From a virus: a stretch of 29,702 bases of DNA. Position numbers and translations under genes: made by a program. Location: the IMG/VR virus record IMGVR_UViG_3300050006_000065, positions 1-29,702 of that record; one strand, written 5' to 3'. A model generated the notes under the pieces. That model had not been told where the DNA came from and did no database searches. It saw nothing but the letters and a program-made list of their open reading frames with translations. Shown here piece after piece: positions 1,896 through 27,410 of this stretch (its first letter is position 1; every line of letters starts with the position of its first letter).

Positions 1896-2123
1896 TTAGA
1901 ATCCTTTGCTCAAGTATCTTTCCAGTTCAGGGCGCAGGATAAGTTGTTGTTTCCCGGCCAGAACAGCCTTGATCTGGTTTAAGCGGATCATATTTCGCAC
2001 ACGGTAACGGGTCACGCCAATGATAATGGCAACTTCAGGAATGGAATAGGAAGGCTTGTTCAAATTAGGCTGCAACTTTTCCATTTCTGCGGTGTTAATG
2101 GTTTCTTTTATCATTTGCTCCAT
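1896..2123 (-). CDS. Excisionase/MerR-like helix-turn-helix protein
   Basis: This is a small DNA-binding protein of the excisionase or MerR-type winged-helix class. The core is YSIPEVAIIIGVTRYRVRNM followed by LILRPELERYLSKGF, matching the pattern of a helix-turn-helix, a short wing and a final helix that sets the reading head. The longest frame begins at a TTG (2153) deep inside the methyltransferase gene, so an ATG at 2123 or 2114 is more likely; GGAG precedes 2114 closely and AGGA precedes 2123 at longer range. It overlaps the end of the methyltransferase gene. It could regulate the adjacent control region (1379-1667) or act in excision. No integrase is visible in the window. Confidence 0.65.
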   Translation of the reverse strand: MEQMIKETINTAEMEKLQPNLNKPSYSIPEVAIIIGVTRYRVRNMIRLNQIKAVLAGKQQLILRPELERYLSKGF

Positions 2124-3066
2124 TGAGAAAGTTGTCCTTGATATGGATTGCAACAGTTTCCATCAACTTGGGTGGAACGCCATTGCCAAGGCGAGCCCAT
2201 TTTGTTGTATACTTTCCAAACAACTTGAAATCGTCCGGAAAAGAGCAAGCCCGCTTGACCATGGGAATGGATAATTGCCCCGGTTTTTCCCAATGATAGG
2301 TTTTTCCTGATGCAAGGATGGTTGGAAAAGGCCTGAAAGGATGTGCTACTTGGTCGTCAAACCCATGTTTCTTGGGATGAACAGATGCCATGCTGTTACC
2401 CGGGGAACAAAGTTTCCATAAATTCCATTTTTCGTTTTTAGGATCCAACATTTTAAGTTCATCCAATGGCAAATCGTCAATGGCAGCAGAGGCAACAATT
2501 GGCTTGGTTGTTGGCTTTGGGTGTCCCGGCGGTTTCTTAAGATCTTTCCTTGTGCCTATGATTATTACCCTTTGCCTTGCTTGAGGCACCCCATACCATT
2601 TGGCGTTCATTACTTGAGCCACGCAATCATATCCACACTCGCGGAGGGTTTTCATTATATCCAGAAAGACCTGTTTCATGTGGCCCTTGACCATCCCGGT
2701 TACATTCTCCACCACAAAAACCTTGGGCTTCAATCCCTTTAACAATCGACAAAACTCCATGAAAAGTGAATTTCTTGGATCTGATATCCTGCGTTTACCT
2801 GAGGTTGAAAACCCCTGACAGGGTGGAGATCCATCCAGCACATCCAGTTCTCCGGGCTTAACTCCTGATAATTCCAGACATTCCTCCAAGCCAAGTTTGC
2901 TGATGTCACCATGATAAACAGGGATTCCCGGGAAGTTTGCCTTGAAGGTCTTTACTGCATTGTCACCCCATTCAACTGCGAGTAGTTCCTTGTAGCCGGC
3001 CTGTTGGTAGCCCAAAGATGAACCACCACAGCCGGCAAAGGTGCTGATGACTGTTGGCTTTACCAT
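2095..3066 (-). CDS. DNA (cytosine-5) methyltransferase
   Basis: This enzyme transfers a methyl group from S-adenosylmethionine to C5 of cytosine in DNA. All main family motifs are visible: motif I FAGCGGSSLG (about residues 10-19) for cofactor binding, motif IV PPCQGFS (81-87) with catalytic C83, motif VI ENV (120-122), motif VIII QARQR (162-166), and motifs IX and X (RPFPTI and GNGVPP) near the C-terminus. The target-recognition region between VIII and IX is short, and the total of about 323 residues is compact but complete. Start ATG 3066 overlaps the ParB-like gene's stop by seven bases; an alternative GTG lies four codons earlier. No restriction endonuclease is recognisable beside it, so this is probably an orphan methylase protecting phage DNA from host restriction. 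Confidence 0.97.
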   Translation of the reverse strand: MVKPTVISTFAGCGGSSLGYQQAGYKELLAVEWGDNAVKTFKANFPGIPVYHGDISKLGLEECLELSGVKPGELDVLDGSPPCQGFSTSGKRRISDPRNSLFMEFCRLLKGLKPKVFVVENVTGMVKGHMKQVFLDIMKTLRECGYDCVAQVMNAKWYGVPQARQRVIIIGTRKDLKKPPGHPKPTTKPIVASAAIDDLPLDELKMLDPKNEKWNLWKLCSPGNSMASVHPKKHGFDDQVAHPFRPFPTILASGKTYHWEKPGQLSIPMVKRACSFPDDFKLFGKYTTKWARLGNGVPPKLMETVAIHIKDNFLNGANDKRNH

Positions 3067-3566
3067 TTGAAGCCACACTTGGGACAGTTGTTTTCCGTGT
3101 GGGTCATTCCTATTTCATCAATTTCCTTGTTGTCACCAGGAATATCAAGAATTGAGAGTTGCTCCCGAAACAATTTGTCTATGCCGGCCAAATCCAGATC
3201 AATCTTGGGTTCAAGGTCTTTTGTCAGTTCATTCAGGTCAAAAAGATTAAATTCAGACAACTCAGCAATCCGGTTATCAGCAATGAGGTGAGCCATTTCA
3301 TCGGCTTCATTCTCAAATTCCTGATAATCCACCGGAACCTTTTCAACCTTTAATTCCTTAGCTGCTTTGAGCCGTCCGTGACCGCTCACAATATACCCGG
3401 ATTTCTTTGATACAGTTATGGGGTTGCGCCAACCCTGTGCCTGAATAATGCGAGCCAGCAGTTTAATTTGGCGCTCATTGTGTTGATTGGGATTACTTGG
3501 GTGTTCAACCAGTTTAACAATATCTACTTGTTCTGAATGTGAACAATGTATTTTGATTTCATTCAT
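3060..3566 (-). CDS. ParB-like nuclease-fold protein with C-terminal CxxC
   Basis: This 168-residue protein carries a ParB/Srx-type domain. NPNQHNERQIKLLARIIQAQ leads into the diagnostic segment VSGHGRLKAAKEL at about residues 59-71, followed by VEKVPV and an ADEMAHLIADNR helix. It lacks the central helix-turn-helix and dimerisation domains of chromosomal ParB. It therefore belongs with short phage ParB-domain proteins that often sit beside DNA methyltransferases. The C-terminus ends CPKCGFKW, half of a zinc-ribbon-like motif. The gene overlaps the methyltransferase by seven bases, so the two are probably translationally coupled. Whether the domain hydrolyses CTP or cuts DNA here cannot be told. 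Confidence 0.85.
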   Translation of the reverse strand: MNEIKIHCSHSEQVDIVKLVEHPSNPNQHNERQIKLLARIIQAQGWRNPITVSKKSGYIVSGHGRLKAAKELKVEKVPVDYQEFENEADEMAHLIADNRIAELSEFNLFDLNELTKDLEPKIDLDLAGIDKLFREQLSILDIPGDNKEIDEIGMTHTENNCPKCGFKW

Positions 3567-3574
3567 AGTTTCTT

Positions 3575-3835
3575 TTAATAAAGCACATCCTCGTTCTCAC
3601 TTTCAAGGGGCACATTGCTGTTGGAAATAATCTTTGCCACCTTGGCCAAGTTCCGCTCAATCATTTCATTCATCACAAACCGCGCTTCCTCATAGTCGGC
3701 ATCCGGGAAATATCCCCCACCCCTAAAGGGAAAATCCTCCCCAATTGCCTCAAGCGTGGGGGCAAGAGTTTCGTTGCCGCCCCATTGCCCCTTGATAAGC
3801 TTGGCCGTTTGCCCATCTATCTCAACAATAATCAT
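3575..3835 (-). CDS. Hypothetical protein (86 aa)
   Basis: I do not recognise this protein. It begins MIIVEIDGQTAKLIKGQWGG and later has an acidic helical part (ADYEEARFVMNEMIERNLAKVAKI), ending in an acidic tail. The start ATG 3835 overlaps the TGA of the head-peptidase gene as ATGA, which favours it over an upstream in-frame ATG inside that gene. Translational coupling to the head protein suggests co-production, but there is no motif to assign a role. Confidence 0.7.
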   Translation of the reverse strand: MIIVEIDGQTAKLIKGQWGGNETLAPTLEAIGEDFPFRGGGYFPDADYEEARFVMNEMIERNLAKVAKIISNSNVPLESENEDVLY

Positions 3836-5820
3836 ACCGGCATCCCGTCTTTCAGGTTCCAAGCCCCGGTGGTGGGCAGTTGCATATCAATTTCCTCCAC
3901 CCCCTTGAGGATGCGAAGGATAAGATCAAAATGGTCAGGGTCTTTGGCGTGGAACTCGGCTGGGTTTTTGAACATCCACTCTAGACCCATGCTTACAATT
4001 TCAGTTTCTCCATCCCCATAAACCTTCCCTACATAAGGGGTAAGAAAATCATCTTCAAAAGCCCTCTCATAAGATTCATAGTTCCCGTTGGGTTCAATTT
4101 TGTTGAGTGGTCGCAACTTATATTTCCTTCTTGCTTGGCCAATTTTCAAGACCTTCATGGGGTCTTTCGCCTTTTCAATATCAGTCATTTTATCCATTGT
4201 TTCATCCAAGGCATTTAGTCCTTTCCCGAGCCTTTCCTTAAACCAATCATTCACCATGCTTTTAACCCAAGGCTTTTTGCCTTCAAGTTGGTGCCCAAAT
4301 TCATGCACAGTAGTTGCTGCATTAGTCTCATTGTTGAGAAAGATGCCTCTGGTTCCTGACGAGAAAGCCCTTTTCTTTTTGGTAAGCGTCACCTTATTGC
4401 TCATTGTTAATGGATGTATGTAAGGCGTTAATGCGTCGCTGGGGTCAGAAACAATATCCCCGGTCAACCTGTTAAACCCATCAATCCCCTTTTGCCATTC
4501 AGGGCGCATCTTGGTTGGATTATGCTTTGTGTTAAAAGCATCCCCTTTGAAGTTGTTTGGTTTCTTGGAGGAAACAGCATCAAGCATCTTGGCCTTGAAT
4601 TTGTTCAGGTTCTGTCTGGCGGCATTAAGAGAATCACGTGTTTTTCGCCATTCCTTTCTGAGCTTGGCCACCTTTGCTTTGGTCACATCCCGATGCCTGA
4701 TGATGGAAATTCTTCTCCCCACTTCTTTTTCACGCAAGGAATCCTTTGCTCCTTGAAGTTCTTCATATTTTACATGGTTATTATGCAGTGCCTCTTTCTT
4801 TTGTTTCTTGACGGCTGGATATTTTTTAAGCACCGCATTCACCTTTTTCTTGGCTGCTTGATATGCCTTGAAGGGGATGGGCTTTGGCGGCTCTGGCTCA
4901 AGGATTTTCTTGGGAACCTTCTTGGCTGGGGCAGGGGCAGGGACGTTGCTAATCTTTTCAATGATCTCAACAAACTCCCCGTTGGTGTAGGCATCCTTGC
5001 CCATCTTATCCAAAAACTTCTTGAGGAACTCAGGCTCAACATCTGCCGCAGCTTTCAGCCCCTTGTTGAATGTGTCATCTGGAGGGAGCACTTGCTCATT
5101 CTTTTGGATTAACCCCATTTGAATAGCTTTATCCCTCCTGACATCCTCAACATCCATGCCGCTGTTGAAGCCCCATGGGCCAAATGGAACCCCCAACCCG
5201 CCGATGCTTTGGTCATTCATCTTGAGCCAGAACTCCATATCGTCTTTGCGCTTCACCTTGTTCTTGTTGCGCTCATGCAGGGGCCGGGGTTCCTTCCTCT
5301 GCTCTGCCCTGATGAATCTTTGGCAGGGATAGGCATCCAGAATGGCGGGGTCTTGCCCCTGCTTGTAATAACCGTAGGCCTGCGCCTGTTGGGTTTGGGT
5401 GTCAAAGATCAGGTTGAGCCTTGACTCGCTGGCGATGTCCTTGGTGCGGGTAATCATGTCCCGGCTCATATCCTCCCCCGGTGGCAGCACATCCCCAAGG
5501 CCGGTTTCCTTGGCCAGCTTTTGCATTTCATAAACGAAGTCAGCGCGGCTTGCCTTTTTCAAAGCCGTCACCCGTCTGCCGTCAGGGGTGGTGACTGTCT
5601 CCCGCGCCCCTGAGAGGTAATCGTTCAGCATCTTTTTGGAGCGATTGAGGAACTTCATGCTTTCCACATTGGCGGTGAAATAAGCTCGATCACGGATTTG
5701 GGTGGGCATTGCCGCCCATTGTTTGCTGCTCAGTTTCTTGGCGATTGCCTTCTTTCGCCCAAGCTTCCTGATTGCCTCCATGAACTTTTCGGGTTTGATA
5801 AGTAATTCGAGTGAAGCCAT
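3832..5820 (-). CDS. MuF-like head morphogenesis protein fused to a zinc metallopeptidase
   Basis: This is a 662-residue, probably virion-associated protein. The N-terminal part (about residues 120-250) carries RLNLIFDTQTQQAQAYGYYKQ and a following Arg/Pro-rich segment, resembling the head-morphogenesis domain of the Mu gp30/SPP1 gp7 (MuF) family. A Lys/Pro-rich, coiled-coil-prone linker spans about 300-420. The C-terminal third has HEFGH (H506, E507, H510), the zinc-binding HExxH signature. TEIVSMGLEW follows about 100 residues later and could give the third ligand E607. Such fusions are known in phage MuF proteins, where the C-terminal domain may be a protease or an effector carried in the particle. 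It starts by a TAATG overlap with the SNase gene. The odd point is its position upstream of the terminase genes rather than after a portal gene. Confidence 0.82.
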   Translation of the reverse strand: MASLELLIKPEKFMEAIRKLGRKKAIAKKLSSKQWAAMPTQIRDRAYFTANVESMKFLNRSKKMLNDYLSGARETVTTPDGRRVTALKKASRADFVYEMQKLAKETGLGDVLPPGEDMSRDMITRTKDIASESRLNLIFDTQTQQAQAYGYYKQGQDPAILDAYPCQRFIRAEQRKEPRPLHERNKNKVKRKDDMEFWLKMNDQSIGGLGVPFGPWGFNSGMDVEDVRRDKAIQMGLIQKNEQVLPPDDTFNKGLKAAADVEPEFLKKFLDKMGKDAYTNGEFVEIIEKISNVPAPAPAKKVPKKILEPEPPKPIPFKAYQAAKKKVNAVLKKYPAVKKQKKEALHNNHVKYEELQGAKDSLREKEVGRRISIIRHRDVTKAKVAKLRKEWRKTRDSLNAARQNLNKFKAKMLDAVSSKKPNNFKGDAFNTKHNPTKMRPEWQKGIDGFNRLTGDIVSDPSDALTPYIHPLTMSNKVTLTKKKRAFSSGTRGIFLNNETNAATTVHEFGHQLEGKKPWVKSMVNDWFKERLGKGLNALDETMDKMTDIEKAKDPMKVLKIGQARRKYKLRPLNKIEPNGNYESYERAFEDDFLTPYVGKVYGDGETEIVSMGLEWMFKNPAEFHAKDPDHFDLILRILKGVEEIDMQLPTTGAWNLKDGMPV

Positions 5821-15642: not shown

Positions 15643-15831
15643 TTAAGGTTTTTGATGAATTTTGGGGTGTGGTAAATCCTTGGTGACGGTTGCCGTCCCT
15701 TTGGGATTGCCGTTTTCATCAAATAACTCATAGAAGGTCATTTTGCAAATGGAGGTAGGTTTGCCGAGATCGATCTTGCAAGTCACGCTGAAGATGGCTT
15801 CAGCCCGTGCCCTTGAATGTTTCCTATTCAC
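15643..15831 (-). CDS. Small hypothetical protein with GTG start (62 aa)
   Basis: It begins MNRKHSRARAEAIFSVTCKI and continues with a strand-like FYELFDENGNPKGTATVTKD. The start is GTG 15831, overlapping the lipoprotein gene's TGA as GTGA. I do not recognise it. It closes the structural transcript, just before the hairpin at 15618-15634. Confidence 0.55.
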   Translation of the reverse strand: MNRKHSRARAEAIFSVTCKIDLGKPTSICKMTFYELFDENGNPKGTATVTKDLPHPKIHQKP

Positions 15832-16034
15832 TGGGCCTCAATCTCCCTCTCTAAATCAGCGATGGTTTCAAGCGCGTCCCTTGTCCAATCTGGAGCCGCA
15901 ATGACGGCAGACTGAAACTGTGGATGAGCTATCAGCCTCTCCGTGTTGTTCAGCCTTGTCGTTATGCAACCGCTGCACATCACCAATAGCAGCGTTAATG
16001 GCAGCATTCTTGGCAGACCAGTTCTTCCTAGCAT
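15828..16034 (-). CDS. Lipoprotein, Rz1-like spanin candidate, nested out of frame
   Basis: This 68-residue protein starts MLGRTGLPRMLPLTLLLVMC and continues SGCITT. It has a short basic n-region, a Leu/Val-rich hydrophobic core and a lipobox-like CSGC, so it should be lipidated and exported. The mature part is mostly helical (RLIAHPQFQSAVIAAP; DALETIADLEREIEAQ). The ATG at 16034 has AAGG four bases upstream; an internal ATG at 16007 is the alternative. Most of the gene lies in a different frame inside the 15868-16158 gene, an arrangement best known from Rz/Rz1 lysis genes. The partner lacks an N-terminal membrane helix, however, so a spanin role is only suggested. Confidence 0.65.
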   Translation of the reverse strand: MLGRTGLPRMLPLTLLLVMCSGCITTRLNNTERLIAHPQFQSAVIAAPDWTRDALETIADLEREIEAQ

Positions 16035-16158
16035 CGAGCCTTGTCCTGTCATCTTCATAATCTTGAGCGATCCTGACCAGCGTCTTGCAAAGGTCAGCAA
16101 CCTCTGGCACCGCACGGGCCAAGGAGTTGATTGTATTTATTAACTGAACTATTCCCAT
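15868..16158 (-). CDS. Hypothetical helical protein overlapping a lipoprotein gene (96 aa)
   Basis: It begins MGIVQLINTINSLARAVPEV and is helical throughout (LCKTLVRIAQDYEDDRTRLD; NAAINAAIGDVQRLHNDKAE), ending with a CRHC motif and a basic tail. It has no clear transmembrane helix or signal, unlike an inner-membrane spanin. Start ATG 16158 overlaps the previous gene by ten bases and lacks a strong ribosome-binding site. Its last two thirds overlap the lipoprotein gene in another frame; both frames read sensibly. Confidence 0.6.
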   Translation of the reverse strand: MGIVQLINTINSLARAVPEVADLCKTLVRIAQDYEDDRTRLDARKNWSAKNAAINAAIGDVQRLHNDKAEQHGEADSSSTVSVCRHCGSRLDKGRA

Positions 16159-25451: not shown

Positions 25452-25976
25452 TTAAAGTAATACAGCACCGGTTACATTCGTGCAGGTGCAGTCCTCGGTG
25501 ATCGGGGTAACGCCACCCTTCTCGACTTTCAGGTTGTTAATGCAGACCTTCTTCTTGTAGCCATAGCTGCCCCTGTCATCATAAAAGGTGTCAGTTGTCT
25601 CTGTGCAAGGTTTGGGAATCCCAAAGCGGCAGTCGCTCACCTTGTCCATGAAGGCGATTGCGCTGTTGTAAGCCGCAATCCTTACATCCGAGACATCCGT
25701 GACCGCACCACCCACCCGCTTCATCAACTCAACAATGATGATGTCGAGTGAGGGGGAATGAAGTACATCAGGTACAGCCGCAGCCGTTGATGCCAAGTTG
25801 TTCCTTGGGCATCCCTTTATGTAACCCCGAACCAGCGCAGCAACATCGTCCGACACTTCCTGAATCAACCCCGAGGAAGTTTGTCCTCCCGCCAAACCGA
25901 TAGAGTTGTACTTAGCCAACTCCGTATCGGTCATGCGCGTCTGGACATCAGATGTCGCTATCGCTGACCAAGCCAT
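25452..25976 (-). CDS. DUF1320/Mu gp36-like head-tail connector protein (174 aa)
   Basis: The opening MAWSAIATSDVQTRMTDTEL resembles the DUF1320/Mu gp36 family (an initial Arg/Thr-containing helix then ELAKYNSIG). Helical stretches DDVAALVRGYIKGCPRNN and LDIIIVELMKRVGG, an AYNSAIAFMDKVSDCRFGIP segment and a Cys-rich end (TEDCTCTN) follow. Such proteins join the head to the tail. Cysteine content is high for the family. The ATG at 25976 directly follows the TAA of a small membrane-protein gene. Confidence 0.65.
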   Translation of the reverse strand: MAWSAIATSDVQTRMTDTELAKYNSIGLAGGQTSSGLIQEVSDDVAALVRGYIKGCPRNNLASTAAAVPDVLHSPSLDIIIVELMKRVGGAVTDVSDVRIAAYNSAIAFMDKVSDCRFGIPKPCTETTDTFYDDRGSYGYKKKVCINNLKVEKGGVTPITEDCTCTNVTGAVLL

Positions 25977-26147
25977 TTAGCTGTTCGCGTTTTCTGCCTT
26001 CTTGACCCCGTGGCGAAGGAAGATGGCAAGCACCGATGTAACGATGACATTGATTGCTGCACCCATTTCCAGCTCGCCACTCATAACACCACCGGCAGCC
26101 GCTAAAATGGCTCCAATGGCTCCAATTACAGTTTTGCTTTTAAACAT
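25977..26147 (-). CDS. Small two-helix membrane protein, holin-like (56 aa)
   Basis: It is read MFKSKTVIGAIGAILAAAGG, then VMSGELEMGA and VIVTSVLAIFLRHGVKK, so two hydrophobic helices are separated by a short acidic turn, with a basic end. Two-helix small proteins of this sort are typical of phage holin-like genes. AAGGA precedes ATG 26147 by about eight bases. It is the last gene of the five-member membrane cassette; function is not proven. Confidence 0.6.
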   Translation of the reverse strand: MFKSKTVIGAIGAILAAAGGVMSGELEMGAAINVIVTSVLAIFLRHGVKKAENANS

Positions 26148-26150
26148 TGT

Positions 26151-26486
26151 TTAGTCCTTTTTCGGTTTGTGTTCTGTCTTATCAATCGCTCCAAGCTTCA
26201 ATTCCACCTTGGGCTTTTCCTTGCCCAGCGAAAGGGTGAGACTCGGAAACGGCACCTCCAGCGACAGATATGGAATCTTGATGTTCAACCCGTCTGGCGA
26301 AACCCCGGCATCAGGCAACACGCCTGCCTTGGCTCCAAGACATAGGGAGGGCAATGGCCATGCTATTCTCTGGCCAAACAGGGTGAGGCTTGGCTTTGGC
26401 TTCCAACCCGCGCCAAACAAATCCCCTGCATTGACGCTGACGGCACAAAGCAGAAACGCCCCGATTATTATTAGTCTCGTTTTCAT
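26151..26486 (-). CDS. Exported protein with Sec signal peptide and PSLxL repeats (111 aa)
   Basis: It begins MKTRLIIIGAFLLCAVSVNA, a good Sec signal with a likely cut after VNA. The mature protein has three similar segments with PSLTLFG, PSLCLG and PSLTLSLG, spaced about 30-40 residues apart, and a basic tail. Such repeats suggest a beta-rich periplasmic protein. I do not recognise the family. Start ATG 26486 overlaps the previous TGA as ATGA. Confidence 0.7.
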   Translation of the reverse strand: MKTRLIIIGAFLLCAVSVNAGDLFGAGWKPKPSLTLFGQRIAWPLPSLCLGAKAGVLPDAGVSPDGLNIKIPYLSLEVPFPSLTLSLGKEKPKVELKLGAIDKTEHKPKKD

Positions 26487-26635
26487 TTCTTTCTCAATAA
26501 TTGCTTAATCTTCAAAATTATGTAAACCAAGCTCGCCAACGAAATCCCAACCTTCAAAATTAGATCAATATCCACAAGCCAGTTACCGAGGCCCGTGACA
26601 CTTGCAAATGCAACTTTAAGGTCATCTAAATTCAT
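26483..26635 (-). CDS. Small single-helix membrane protein (50 aa)
   Basis: It is read MNLDDLKVAFASVTGLGNWL, then LILKVGISLASLVYIILKIK with a basic end (KQLLRKK). One hydrophobic helix with a positively charged C-terminus is typical of small phage membrane proteins, including some holins or antiholins. It starts at ATG 26635 (ATGA overlap) and ends in TGA overlapping the next gene. It is unassigned. Confidence 0.55.
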   Translation of the reverse strand: MNLDDLKVAFASVTGLGNWLVDIDLILKVGISLASLVYIILKIKQLLRKK

Positions 26636-26769
26636 TCAATCGCTTTGCCTTCATATTCAATATCAATGAAGGGGGTGTCTATTTCCAGCTTCCCCGGCAA
26701 CGATTTGCAGCCTGCCCCTACCCTAATCACCACCGCCGCAATCACAATAATGGCTAGAAATCTTTTCAC
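26632..26769 (-). CDS. Very small lipoprotein, possible outer-membrane spanin (45 aa)
   Basis: It is read MKRFLAIIVIAAVVIRVGAG with Cys next, a basic start, hydrophobic core and lipobox VGAGC. The mature part is only about 25 residues (KSLPGKLEIDTPFIDIEYEG). Small lipoproteins beside holin-like genes are typical of o-spanins, but this one is shorter than most. The start is GTG 26769 (GTGA overlap with the previous stop); its TGA overlaps the next ATG. Confidence 0.6.
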   Translation of the reverse strand: MKRFLAIIVIAAVVIRVGAGCKSLPGKLEIDTPFIDIEYEGKAIE

Positions 26770-27059
26770 TCATCCTCCCGTTTTTTAGTCAGGCGTTTTG
26801 AGTTAATGCCAAGGCACTTGTAGAGGGCACCAACTTCAACTCGAAGCATGGCTACCTCCTTTTCAAGCTTCCGTGTTTCCTTGTCATGTCCATTCAGTCG
26901 GTCAATCAGTTTTACGATAATGTCGTAAAGGCCTTTGACCTCTCCAGAGAGGTTCCGCAGTACATAGAAAACAATCTTGTAGCCAAATATCCCTGCGGCA
27001 GCAGCGGCCACCACCGGGAAGCCGAGCGTCTGGATAAGGTTGGCTGTGTCGGTTCCCAC
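26766..27059 (-). CDS. Holin-like membrane protein with C-terminal coiled coil (97 aa)
   Basis: It begins MGTDTANLIQTLGFPVVAAA and continues AAGIFGYKIVFYVLRNL, one strong hydrophobic helix near the N-terminus. A charged heptad-like segment follows (IIVKLIDRLNGHDKETRKLE; KEVAMLRVEVGALYKCL) with a basic end. The shape resembles small phage holins and holin-like proteins such as BhlA, or equally an inner-membrane spanin with a coiled-coil ectodomain. The start is GTG 27059, three bases after the previous TAA. Its neighbours support a lysis role. Confidence 0.6.
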   Translation of the reverse strand: MGTDTANLIQTLGFPVVAAAAAGIFGYKIVFYVLRNLSGEVKGLYDIIVKLIDRLNGHDKETRKLEKEVAMLRVEVGALYKCLGINSKRLTKKREDE

Positions 27060-27062
27060 ATT

Positions 27063-27410
27063 TTATTCAGAGTCCCCTTCCTTAGCGGGAGCTTCCTCTA
27101 CCTTTTTTGCAGCCTTCTCCTCTGCCGGAGCGCGTTTCAGGCCCAACTGTTTTAGGGCGAGGTCAATGATGTAATCACTATCGCTTGCCGCAGCGCCGGG
27201 AACCCAGCCCTTCCAACTCTCACCGACCACATTGAGCAACGTGCTAACCAAGGGATTTGGCCCCCAAGTCAGATTACCCTCTGCATCTGTGTACTTGCCA
27301 AAGCCAGCTACACTAAATTGCATCCCAAACTCTTGGGCGCTGTTCAGCGTAATGGCCACCTTGCTCACATTGAGCGTTTTCTCGTTTGGTATTGTGTATA
27401 CTTCAATCAT
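27063..27410 (-). CDS. Probable virion or tail-fibre-associated protein (115 aa)
   Basis: It begins MIEVYTIPNEKTLNVSKVAI and is beta-rich early, with GFGKYTDAEGNLTWGPN in the middle. It ends in a Lys/Glu/Ala-rich tail (APAEEKAAKKVEEAPA). Start ATG 27410 shares a base with the previous stop (TAATG). It is unrecognised; position suggests a structural or assembly role next to the tail fibre. Confidence 0.6.
   Translation of the reverse strand: MIEVYTIPNEKTLNVSKVAITLNSAQEFGMQFSVAGFGKYTDAEGNLTWGPNPLVSTLLNVVGESWKGWVPGAAASDSDYIIDLALKQLGLKRAPAEEKAAKKVEEAPAKEGDSE

Follow-up and report, generated by a model that had tools for sequence, protein, structure and literature searches.

The succession of endolysin, holin and Rz/Rz1 genes is a known phage layout, and the gene order of Synechococcus phage Yong-M4-211 matches it. 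Another system close to the locus studied here is the curli-pore locus of Methylophilales phage Melnitz and of pelagimyophages, for which the authors of the report on Melnitz suggest that the curli pores (csgF/csgG) may regulate lysis (PMC9004378). Definitions of the two-component spanins Rz/Rz1 were taken from PMC6139136. The DNA analysed here (the window) is an entire virus record of 29,702 bases, possibly a fragment, in which five small genes are joined in a cassette beside a head-tail gene. We consider it fairly probable that these five genes form a late-expressed lysis module, every function, topology and timing given below being predicted. The cassette (25977-27059) and the genes that border it are arranged as follows:

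27063..27410, minus strand: conserved gene of 115 aa, immediately upstream of the cassette (context)
27059-26766, minus strand: 97-aa protein, GTG start
26769-26632, minus strand: 45-aa putative lipoprotein, GTG start
26635-26483, minus strand: 50-aa protein, ATG start
26486-26151, minus strand: 111-aa protein, ATG start
26147-25977, minus strand: 56-aa probable holin, ATG start
25452..25976, minus strand: 174-aa Mu Gp36-like head-tail gene, directly downstream (context; Pfam Phage_Mu_Gp36, E 8e-6)

A preliminary description of this DNA had proposed five small genes joined mostly by 4-base overlaps. All five frames are indeed present, and 3 of the 4 internal junctions overlap by 4 bases (GTGA for 97/45, ATGA for 45/50 and ATGA for 50/111), the 111/56 junction being a 3-base gap, after which the Gp36-like gene abuts the 56-aa gene. 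Upstream of the cassette lie the 115-aa gene, a 93-aa gene (phrog_6228, no function assigned) and a 619-aa frame, which we take to be the single window frame matching a LamG-like domain. The descriptions of the proteins fit as well: the 97-aa and 50-aa proteins each have a single hydrophobic segment, the 56-aa protein has two, and the 45-aa and 111-aa proteins have an N-terminal one, a putative export signal. Matches to known families (PHROG, Pfam) were poor for four of the cassette proteins, the exception being the 97-aa protein, which matches phrog_18771 (no function assigned, E 2.5e-10). A 113-aa frame on the plus strand (window 26167-26508), antisense to the 111-aa gene, is probably a shadow frame.

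Homologous loci were obtained from three scans of viral contigs, which gave 49, 30 and 20 matches. Homologues were extracted at 51 loci for the 97-aa gene, 58 for the 45-aa gene, 81 for the 50-aa gene, 50 for the 111-aa gene and 83 for the 56-aa gene. Several of these loci overlap, having been fetched from one and the same contig, and a few genes for the 97-aa protein, truncated by a contig end, were called from an internal start. The median pairwise dN/dS, from which saturated and near-identical pairs were excluded, was 0.090 for the 97-aa gene, 0.262 for the 45-aa gene, 0.200 for the 50-aa gene, 0.132 for the 111-aa gene and 0.282 for the 56-aa gene. Homologues at so many loci together with low dN/dS rule out that the small frames occur by chance. 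All five genes are thus confirmed as real, conserved and under purifying selection, including the three that had been announced as shorter than 60 residues (45, 50 and 56 aa). Among the junctions, the 4-base overlap between the 50-aa and 111-aa genes is retained in 46 of 49 loci and that between the 45-aa and 50-aa genes in 34 of 57, inserts disrupting the latter in some phages. The 3-base gap 5' of the 56-aa gene is retained in 28/50 loci. The 97/45 overlap is exactly 4 bases in 7 of 44 loci only, the rest showing an overlap of at least 8 bases or a gap, a count that depends on the choice of start.

Further scans were run with profiles of the 97-aa protein, of the 56-aa protein (80 of 246 relatives kept) and of a protein named mini-MscS, described below. 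Gene order was then compared in 151 distinct contexts, which were left once any sequence around the 56-aa gene that was identical to another, or contained in it, had been discarded; near-identical phages were counted separately. As the loci were baited with the 97-aa, Gp36, 111-aa, mini-MscS and 56-aa proteins, the counts do not reflect natural frequencies, and some loci end at contig ends, so that a missing gene is not always a true absence. All 151 contexts are sub-sets of one gene order. The most frequent form is mini-MscS-45-50-56 (49 contexts), followed by 50-111-56 (31), 97-45-50-111-56 (22), 97-45-50-56 (22), mini-MscS-45-50-111-56 (8), the 56-aa gene alone (8), 50-56 (6) and rarer forms (5). 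The form with all five genes, seen in 22/151 contexts, is that of the window itself. The 50-aa gene is present in 14/14 records searched whole, and the 111-aa gene is an optional member of the cassette. In some phages, the 45-aa gene is separated from the 50-aa gene by inserts of up to ~2.2 kb; those that were read (L004:1018-3057, L009:620-2579 and L023:6393-8132) encode mostly Lys-rich or low-complexity proteins. In L053, the 115-aa gene leads straight into the 50-aa gene, with neither a first-slot gene nor a 45-aa gene between them. In L069 and L073, the 115-aa and 56-aa genes flank a gene for a short membrane protein of a third type, which has a charged tail; the 45-aa and 50-aa genes were looked for in these two loci and not detected.

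The 56-aa protein of the window has hydrophobic segments at residues 6-24 and 26-44. At least one hydrophobic segment was found in 51/51 distinct members of its family, with one rather than two in 41/51 at the 1.4 threshold. Resemblance to holin families is weak: the window protein reached 0.12 at best, and within the family phrog_297 was matched by 4/33 members, phrog_3428 by 4/33 and phrog_962 by 1/33 (best E 0.0017). Searches of the phage collection with the window's own 56-aa protein, its 50-aa protein and its Gp36-like protein gave no match. Four relatives of the 56-aa protein, when searched by tblastn, each matched two cultured Synechococcus phages, at E about 0.01-0.04, and comparison of the family profile with the cyanophage homologue gave an hhalign probability of 98.8 (E 8.5e-17, 43% identity). 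In Yong-M4-211, this homologue sits after a gene annotated as L-alanyl-D-glutamate peptidase, at which the record matches PF13539 (E 3e-13), and is followed by a 170-aa gene whose product has a hydrophobic segment at its N-terminus; this gene contains an overlapping 69-aa frame with an LSAC lipoprotein motif and a Pro-rich tail. In Ssp-JY42, the homologue comes after a gene annotated as D-alanyl-D-alanine carboxypeptidase and the annotated layout is that of Yong-M4-211; the two phages share this layout and probably represent one lineage, and hence count as one case. Both resemble the lambda-type holin-endolysin-Rz/Rz1 cassettes in that an Rz-like gene, overlapped by an Rz1-like frame, comes after the 56-aa homologue; the uncultured relatives differ in that no recognisable endolysin was found in them, in carrying extra small envelope genes and in that their Rz-like protein (that of L020 was used as query) gave no match in the phage collection.

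The position of the 56-aa homologue next to endolysin and Rz-like genes in cultured Synechococcus phages supports the lysis reading, and sequence features and neighbourhood make the 56-aa protein a probable, predicted holin. The 97-aa protein had been put forward as the holin-like member of the cassette, a role for which the 56-aa protein is the better candidate.

The 97-aa protein consists of an N-terminal hydrophobic segment (residues 16-34) followed by a charged, possibly coiled-coil tail, and its Cys82 is invariant in 29 aligned members. No channel family was matched by this protein in PHROG or Pfam, and no relatives were found in the bacterial genomes searched with it. It is distantly related to gp98 of Melnitz (hhalign probability 95, E 3.9e-8), with 29% identity over 70 residues only. 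The gp98 gene (L107:4995-5342) lies just upstream of csgF and csgG. The Melnitz locus is similar in containing a distant relative of the 97-aa protein and differs in its curli genes; curli families were absent from the Pfam lists of the window and its relatives (for relative G001, among 25 of the 38 families listed). The location of gp98 next to curli pores may be a parallel for a part of the 97-aa protein in lysis, one that is suggestive only.

In several relatives, the slot of the 97-aa gene is occupied by an unrelated protein of 127-129 aa, which we named mini-MscS and which was found at 50 loci in its own profile scan, including:

L065:522-905, mini-MscS in the slot of the 97-aa gene
L068:5156-5536, mini-MscS in the slot of the 97-aa gene
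L071:3584-3970, mini-MscS in the slot of the 97-aa gene
L075:5145-5531, mini-MscS in the slot of the 97-aa gene

All 35 aligned members of mini-MscS match the MscS beta domain (PF00924) with E values no higher than 0.1, the best being 2.3e-5. The first member scores 24.9 bits against a cut-off of 20.2, and a six-member profile compared to the PDB reached MscS (4hw9) at 0.071 only. The AlphaFold2 model was poor (pLDDT 52) and, at E <= 0.001, Foldseek gave no fold match for it, so that the MscS assignment relies on the amino acid sequence. Like the MscS channel, mini-MscS has a hydrophobic helix that leads into the beta domain. It is unlike the channel in its length of about 128 aa, in its one hydrophobic segment (in the single member tested) and single Pfam domain, and in its location in a phage cassette; neither the three membrane helices of MscS nor its C-terminal alpha/beta domain was found in these 127-129 residues. 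A search of the phage collection with mini-MscS gave no match.

The two proteins exclude each other in the first slot: among the 151 contexts, 44 contain the 97-aa gene, 58 mini-MscS, none both and 49 neither, and among the 81 for which 2.5 kb upstream was available the corresponding numbers are 25, 40, 0 and 16. The 45-aa gene, which never served as bait, accompanies the 97-aa gene in 44/44 contexts and mini-MscS in 58/58, and is found in 3 further contexts without either. We infer that the 97-aa protein and mini-MscS do the same job together with the 45-aa lipoprotein. The first slot and the 45-aa gene are nevertheless dispensable, as neither first-slot protein is present in 16 of the 81 contexts with 2.5 kb upstream, which counts against an essential role. 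The 97-aa and 45-aa proteins were also considered as the main spanin pair, the 97-aa protein having one segment and a charged tail, and this was rejected because the slot also takes a protein with an MscS beta domain and because the charge distribution, together with the exchange with mini-MscS, suggests that the tail would be cytoplasmic.

The beta domain retained by mini-MscS (35/35 matches to PF00924, at E up to 0.1) would also suit an osmotic or ion-channel module, in which the first-slot proteins adjust turgor or ion flux late in infection and do not serve lysis, and a metagenome study, in which viral MscL genes are reported to rise in abundance with salinity (PMC13288924), goes in the same direction. 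Such a module would leave the holin-type 56-aa gene and the endolysin neighbour of its cyanophage homologue unexplained, and the 97-aa protein, which takes the same slot, matches no channel family; we regard it as quite improbable.

The lipobox of the 45-aa protein is atypical: the strict pattern was found in 16 of 40 distinct members and the loose pattern in 40/40, and the comparison with Pfam LPAM_1 gave 0.29 only. The 50-aa protein has one hydrophobic segment (residues 23-41) and a basic C-terminus. The 111-aa protein starts with a hydrophobic, signal-like segment and contains three PSLxL motifs, read directly from the sequence; its Cys49 is invariant in 33 aligned members, and its AlphaFold2 model (pLDDT 45) was too poor to use. 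For the 50-, 45- and 111-aa proteins, we infer roles only from their position.

Among exclusion factors, small lipoproteins and proteins with one helix are common. The cassette might accordingly be an envelope-remodelling or superinfection-exclusion module, whose lipoprotein, exported and membrane proteins block DNA entry by other phages, and the pairing of the 45-aa lipoprotein with a first-slot membrane protein in all 102 contexts that have one would fit such a function. The endolysin gene adjoining the 56-aa homologue speaks against it, as does the neighbouring head-tail gene, which suggests late expression, and we find this alternative unlikely. Where the preliminary description left a choice between a lysis and an envelope-modification operon, the evidence is on the side of lysis, chiefly through the 56-aa gene and its cyanophage neighbours, while envelope modification or superinfection exclusion stays a rival for the 45-, 50- and 111-aa proteins.

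Endolysins were searched for in 35 records of 28.6-71.2 kb, namely the window and 34 related records, which are possibly incomplete and each contain at least one cassette gene. None of six endolysin families was matched above its cut-off in these records, whereas control genomes gave matches for all six and the cyanophage record matched PF13539. For Phage_lysozyme, Amidase_2, Peptidase_M15_4 and SLT, 0/35 records were matched, and sub-threshold matches were seen for M23 in 3/35 records and for CHAP in 1/35. The latter lies in a 46-aa frame and was rejected, as were the M23 matches, all below the cut-off: the one in L258 falls in a 509-aa frame with an AANGSGKDK motif, which probably encodes a large terminase, and the other two fall in frames of equal length. 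A GH108 search was not informative, since it matched no control genome, and the cyanophage endolysin used as protein query, without a positive control, gave no match.

Similarly, no cell-wall hydrolase appeared when frames chosen from the window and from eight relatives were compared with Pfam (for G001, among 25 of the 38 families listed, those beyond the 25 matching one frame each at E above 0.0006), nor in a scan of 72 of the 76 neighbour representatives. The scans covered 36 chosen frames of the window plus 10, some being in both sets, 32 of the 38 frames of at least 95 aa of G001, 34 of 48 of G002, and 40 of the 61 representatives without a match to those, from G003, G004, G005, G006, G008 and G014; the frames left out were those taken for cassette genes or for spurious ones. 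The statement that no endolysin lies beside the cassette thus stands for the scanned neighbours, among which no endolysin family was found next to the 56-aa gene in the window or in the uncultured relatives. Elsewhere in the phage, none was seen in the scanned window frames, and none of the six families exceeded its cut-off in the 34 related records. An endolysin from outside the known families would be missed by these searches. In the open-licence literature on phages without an endolysin, on Verrucomicrobia phage lysis, on the Synechococcus cyanophage and on phage-encoded MscS or MscS in lysis, we recognised no description of such a module.

A candidate for another lysis component, an overlapping pair of genes, lies ~10 kb from the cassette in the window and does not adjoin it:

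15868..16158, minus strand: 96-aa Rz-like candidate, with weak N-terminal hydrophobicity in the window phage
15828..16115, minus strand: Rz1-like candidate lipoprotein with an SGC motif, in the +1 frame of the Rz-like gene

The starts of the two frames differ by 43 bases (= +1), the Rz1-like start being uncertain because several in-frame ATGs precede the SGC motif. The Rz-like family, which is distinct from the 170-aa gene of the cyanophages, is present in 68/151 contexts, usually right after the 56-aa gene, and an Rz/Rz1-like pair occurs somewhere in 8/8 relatives fetched. In the 34 loci printed, some of which are fetches of one contig, the lipoprotein-like partner is always in the +1 frame, with a lipobox by our pattern in 33. 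Compared with two-component spanins as defined in PMC6139136, the pair is alike in combining a small protein with a lipoprotein-like frame that overlaps it in +1, and unlike in that the partner is not Pro-rich and that the window Rz-like member is detached from the cassette and without a clear membrane segment. No N-terminal membrane segment was found in the latter (maximum 0.92 against a threshold of 1.4), whereas its relative in L020 exceeds the threshold (1.61). Sequence thus predicts the pair 16158-15828 to be a probable spanin, a call that is weaker in the window because the Rz-like member is not clearly membrane-bound.

The cassette is common to phages with Mu-like and with SU10-like structural genes: it adjoins Mu Gp36 in the window, occurs with an SU10 adaptor in G001, and in G002 is accompanied by an integrase and by the capsid and portal families of SU10. 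A set of 40 frames from six further relatives, with 18 of the frames coming from G004 (= L097, L098), the closest long relative, gave matches to Mu-like portal and protease families and to capsid E. This distribution, as well as the hydrophobic segments of all five proteins, argues against minor virion or assembly proteins that are merely located in a structural operon, an explanation for which the abutting head-tail connector gene could be cited and which we hold to be very improbable.

Several other genes of these phages were recorded. The set of 40 frames named above, to which G004 contributes 18, also includes Tet_JBP oxygenase, TAGT glycosyltransferase, ADDT and P-loop kinase domains, possibly a DNA base hypermodification set. 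The window contains a DNA-methyltransferase gene (2095-3078) and, on the minus strand (3832-5820), a gene whose 662-aa product is minor-head-like in its N-terminal part and has, read directly, an HEFGH metallopeptidase-like motif near the C-terminus. The prepilin-like protein encoded by G001 (L088:13635-14609) starts with GFTLIELLVVIAIIAIL and contains an H-X9-DG domain, matched at its cut-off. Proteins of this prepilin/H-X9-DG type are typical of Planctomycetes, Verrucomicrobia and Lentisphaerae, and as a pointer to the host the gene is a weak hint only.

In the lysis module that we favour, the 56-aa protein would be the holin, or one of a set of holins, in the inner membrane, and the 50-aa protein might be another small partner in that membrane, similar to an antiholin or a pinholin. 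The protein of the first slot, the 97-aa protein here and mini-MscS elsewhere, would form an inner-membrane oligomer with a soluble part that is probably cytoplasmic, and together with the 45-aa lipoprotein it may govern depolarisation of the membrane or connect the membranes with each other. The 111-aa protein could act as an exported accessory factor and the overlapping pair 16158-15828 as the probable spanin. Late expression would be expected because the cassette abuts a head-tail gene. What counts against a lysis module is that no endolysin was found, that the matches to holin families are weak and that in the window the Rz/Rz1-like pair lies away from the cassette.

Two observations were unexpected: mini-MscS takes the place of the 97-aa protein in other phages, and no recognisable endolysin was found. 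It is conceivable, if quite unlikely, that a membrane oligomer (a minimal MscS-derived pore or the 97-aa protein), a small lipoprotein and a small holin break the envelope without a conventional peptidoglycan-degrading endolysin. The absence of known endolysins from these records is a question that culturing or expression could address directly. The clean exchange in one slot between unrelated membrane proteins, one of them with an MscS beta domain, offers a testable case for a channel fold recruited to a late membrane function of phages. In uncultured phages, small genes for lysis and envelope functions are poorly annotated. A module common to phages with differing structural genes may be used to find lysis genes where none have been called.
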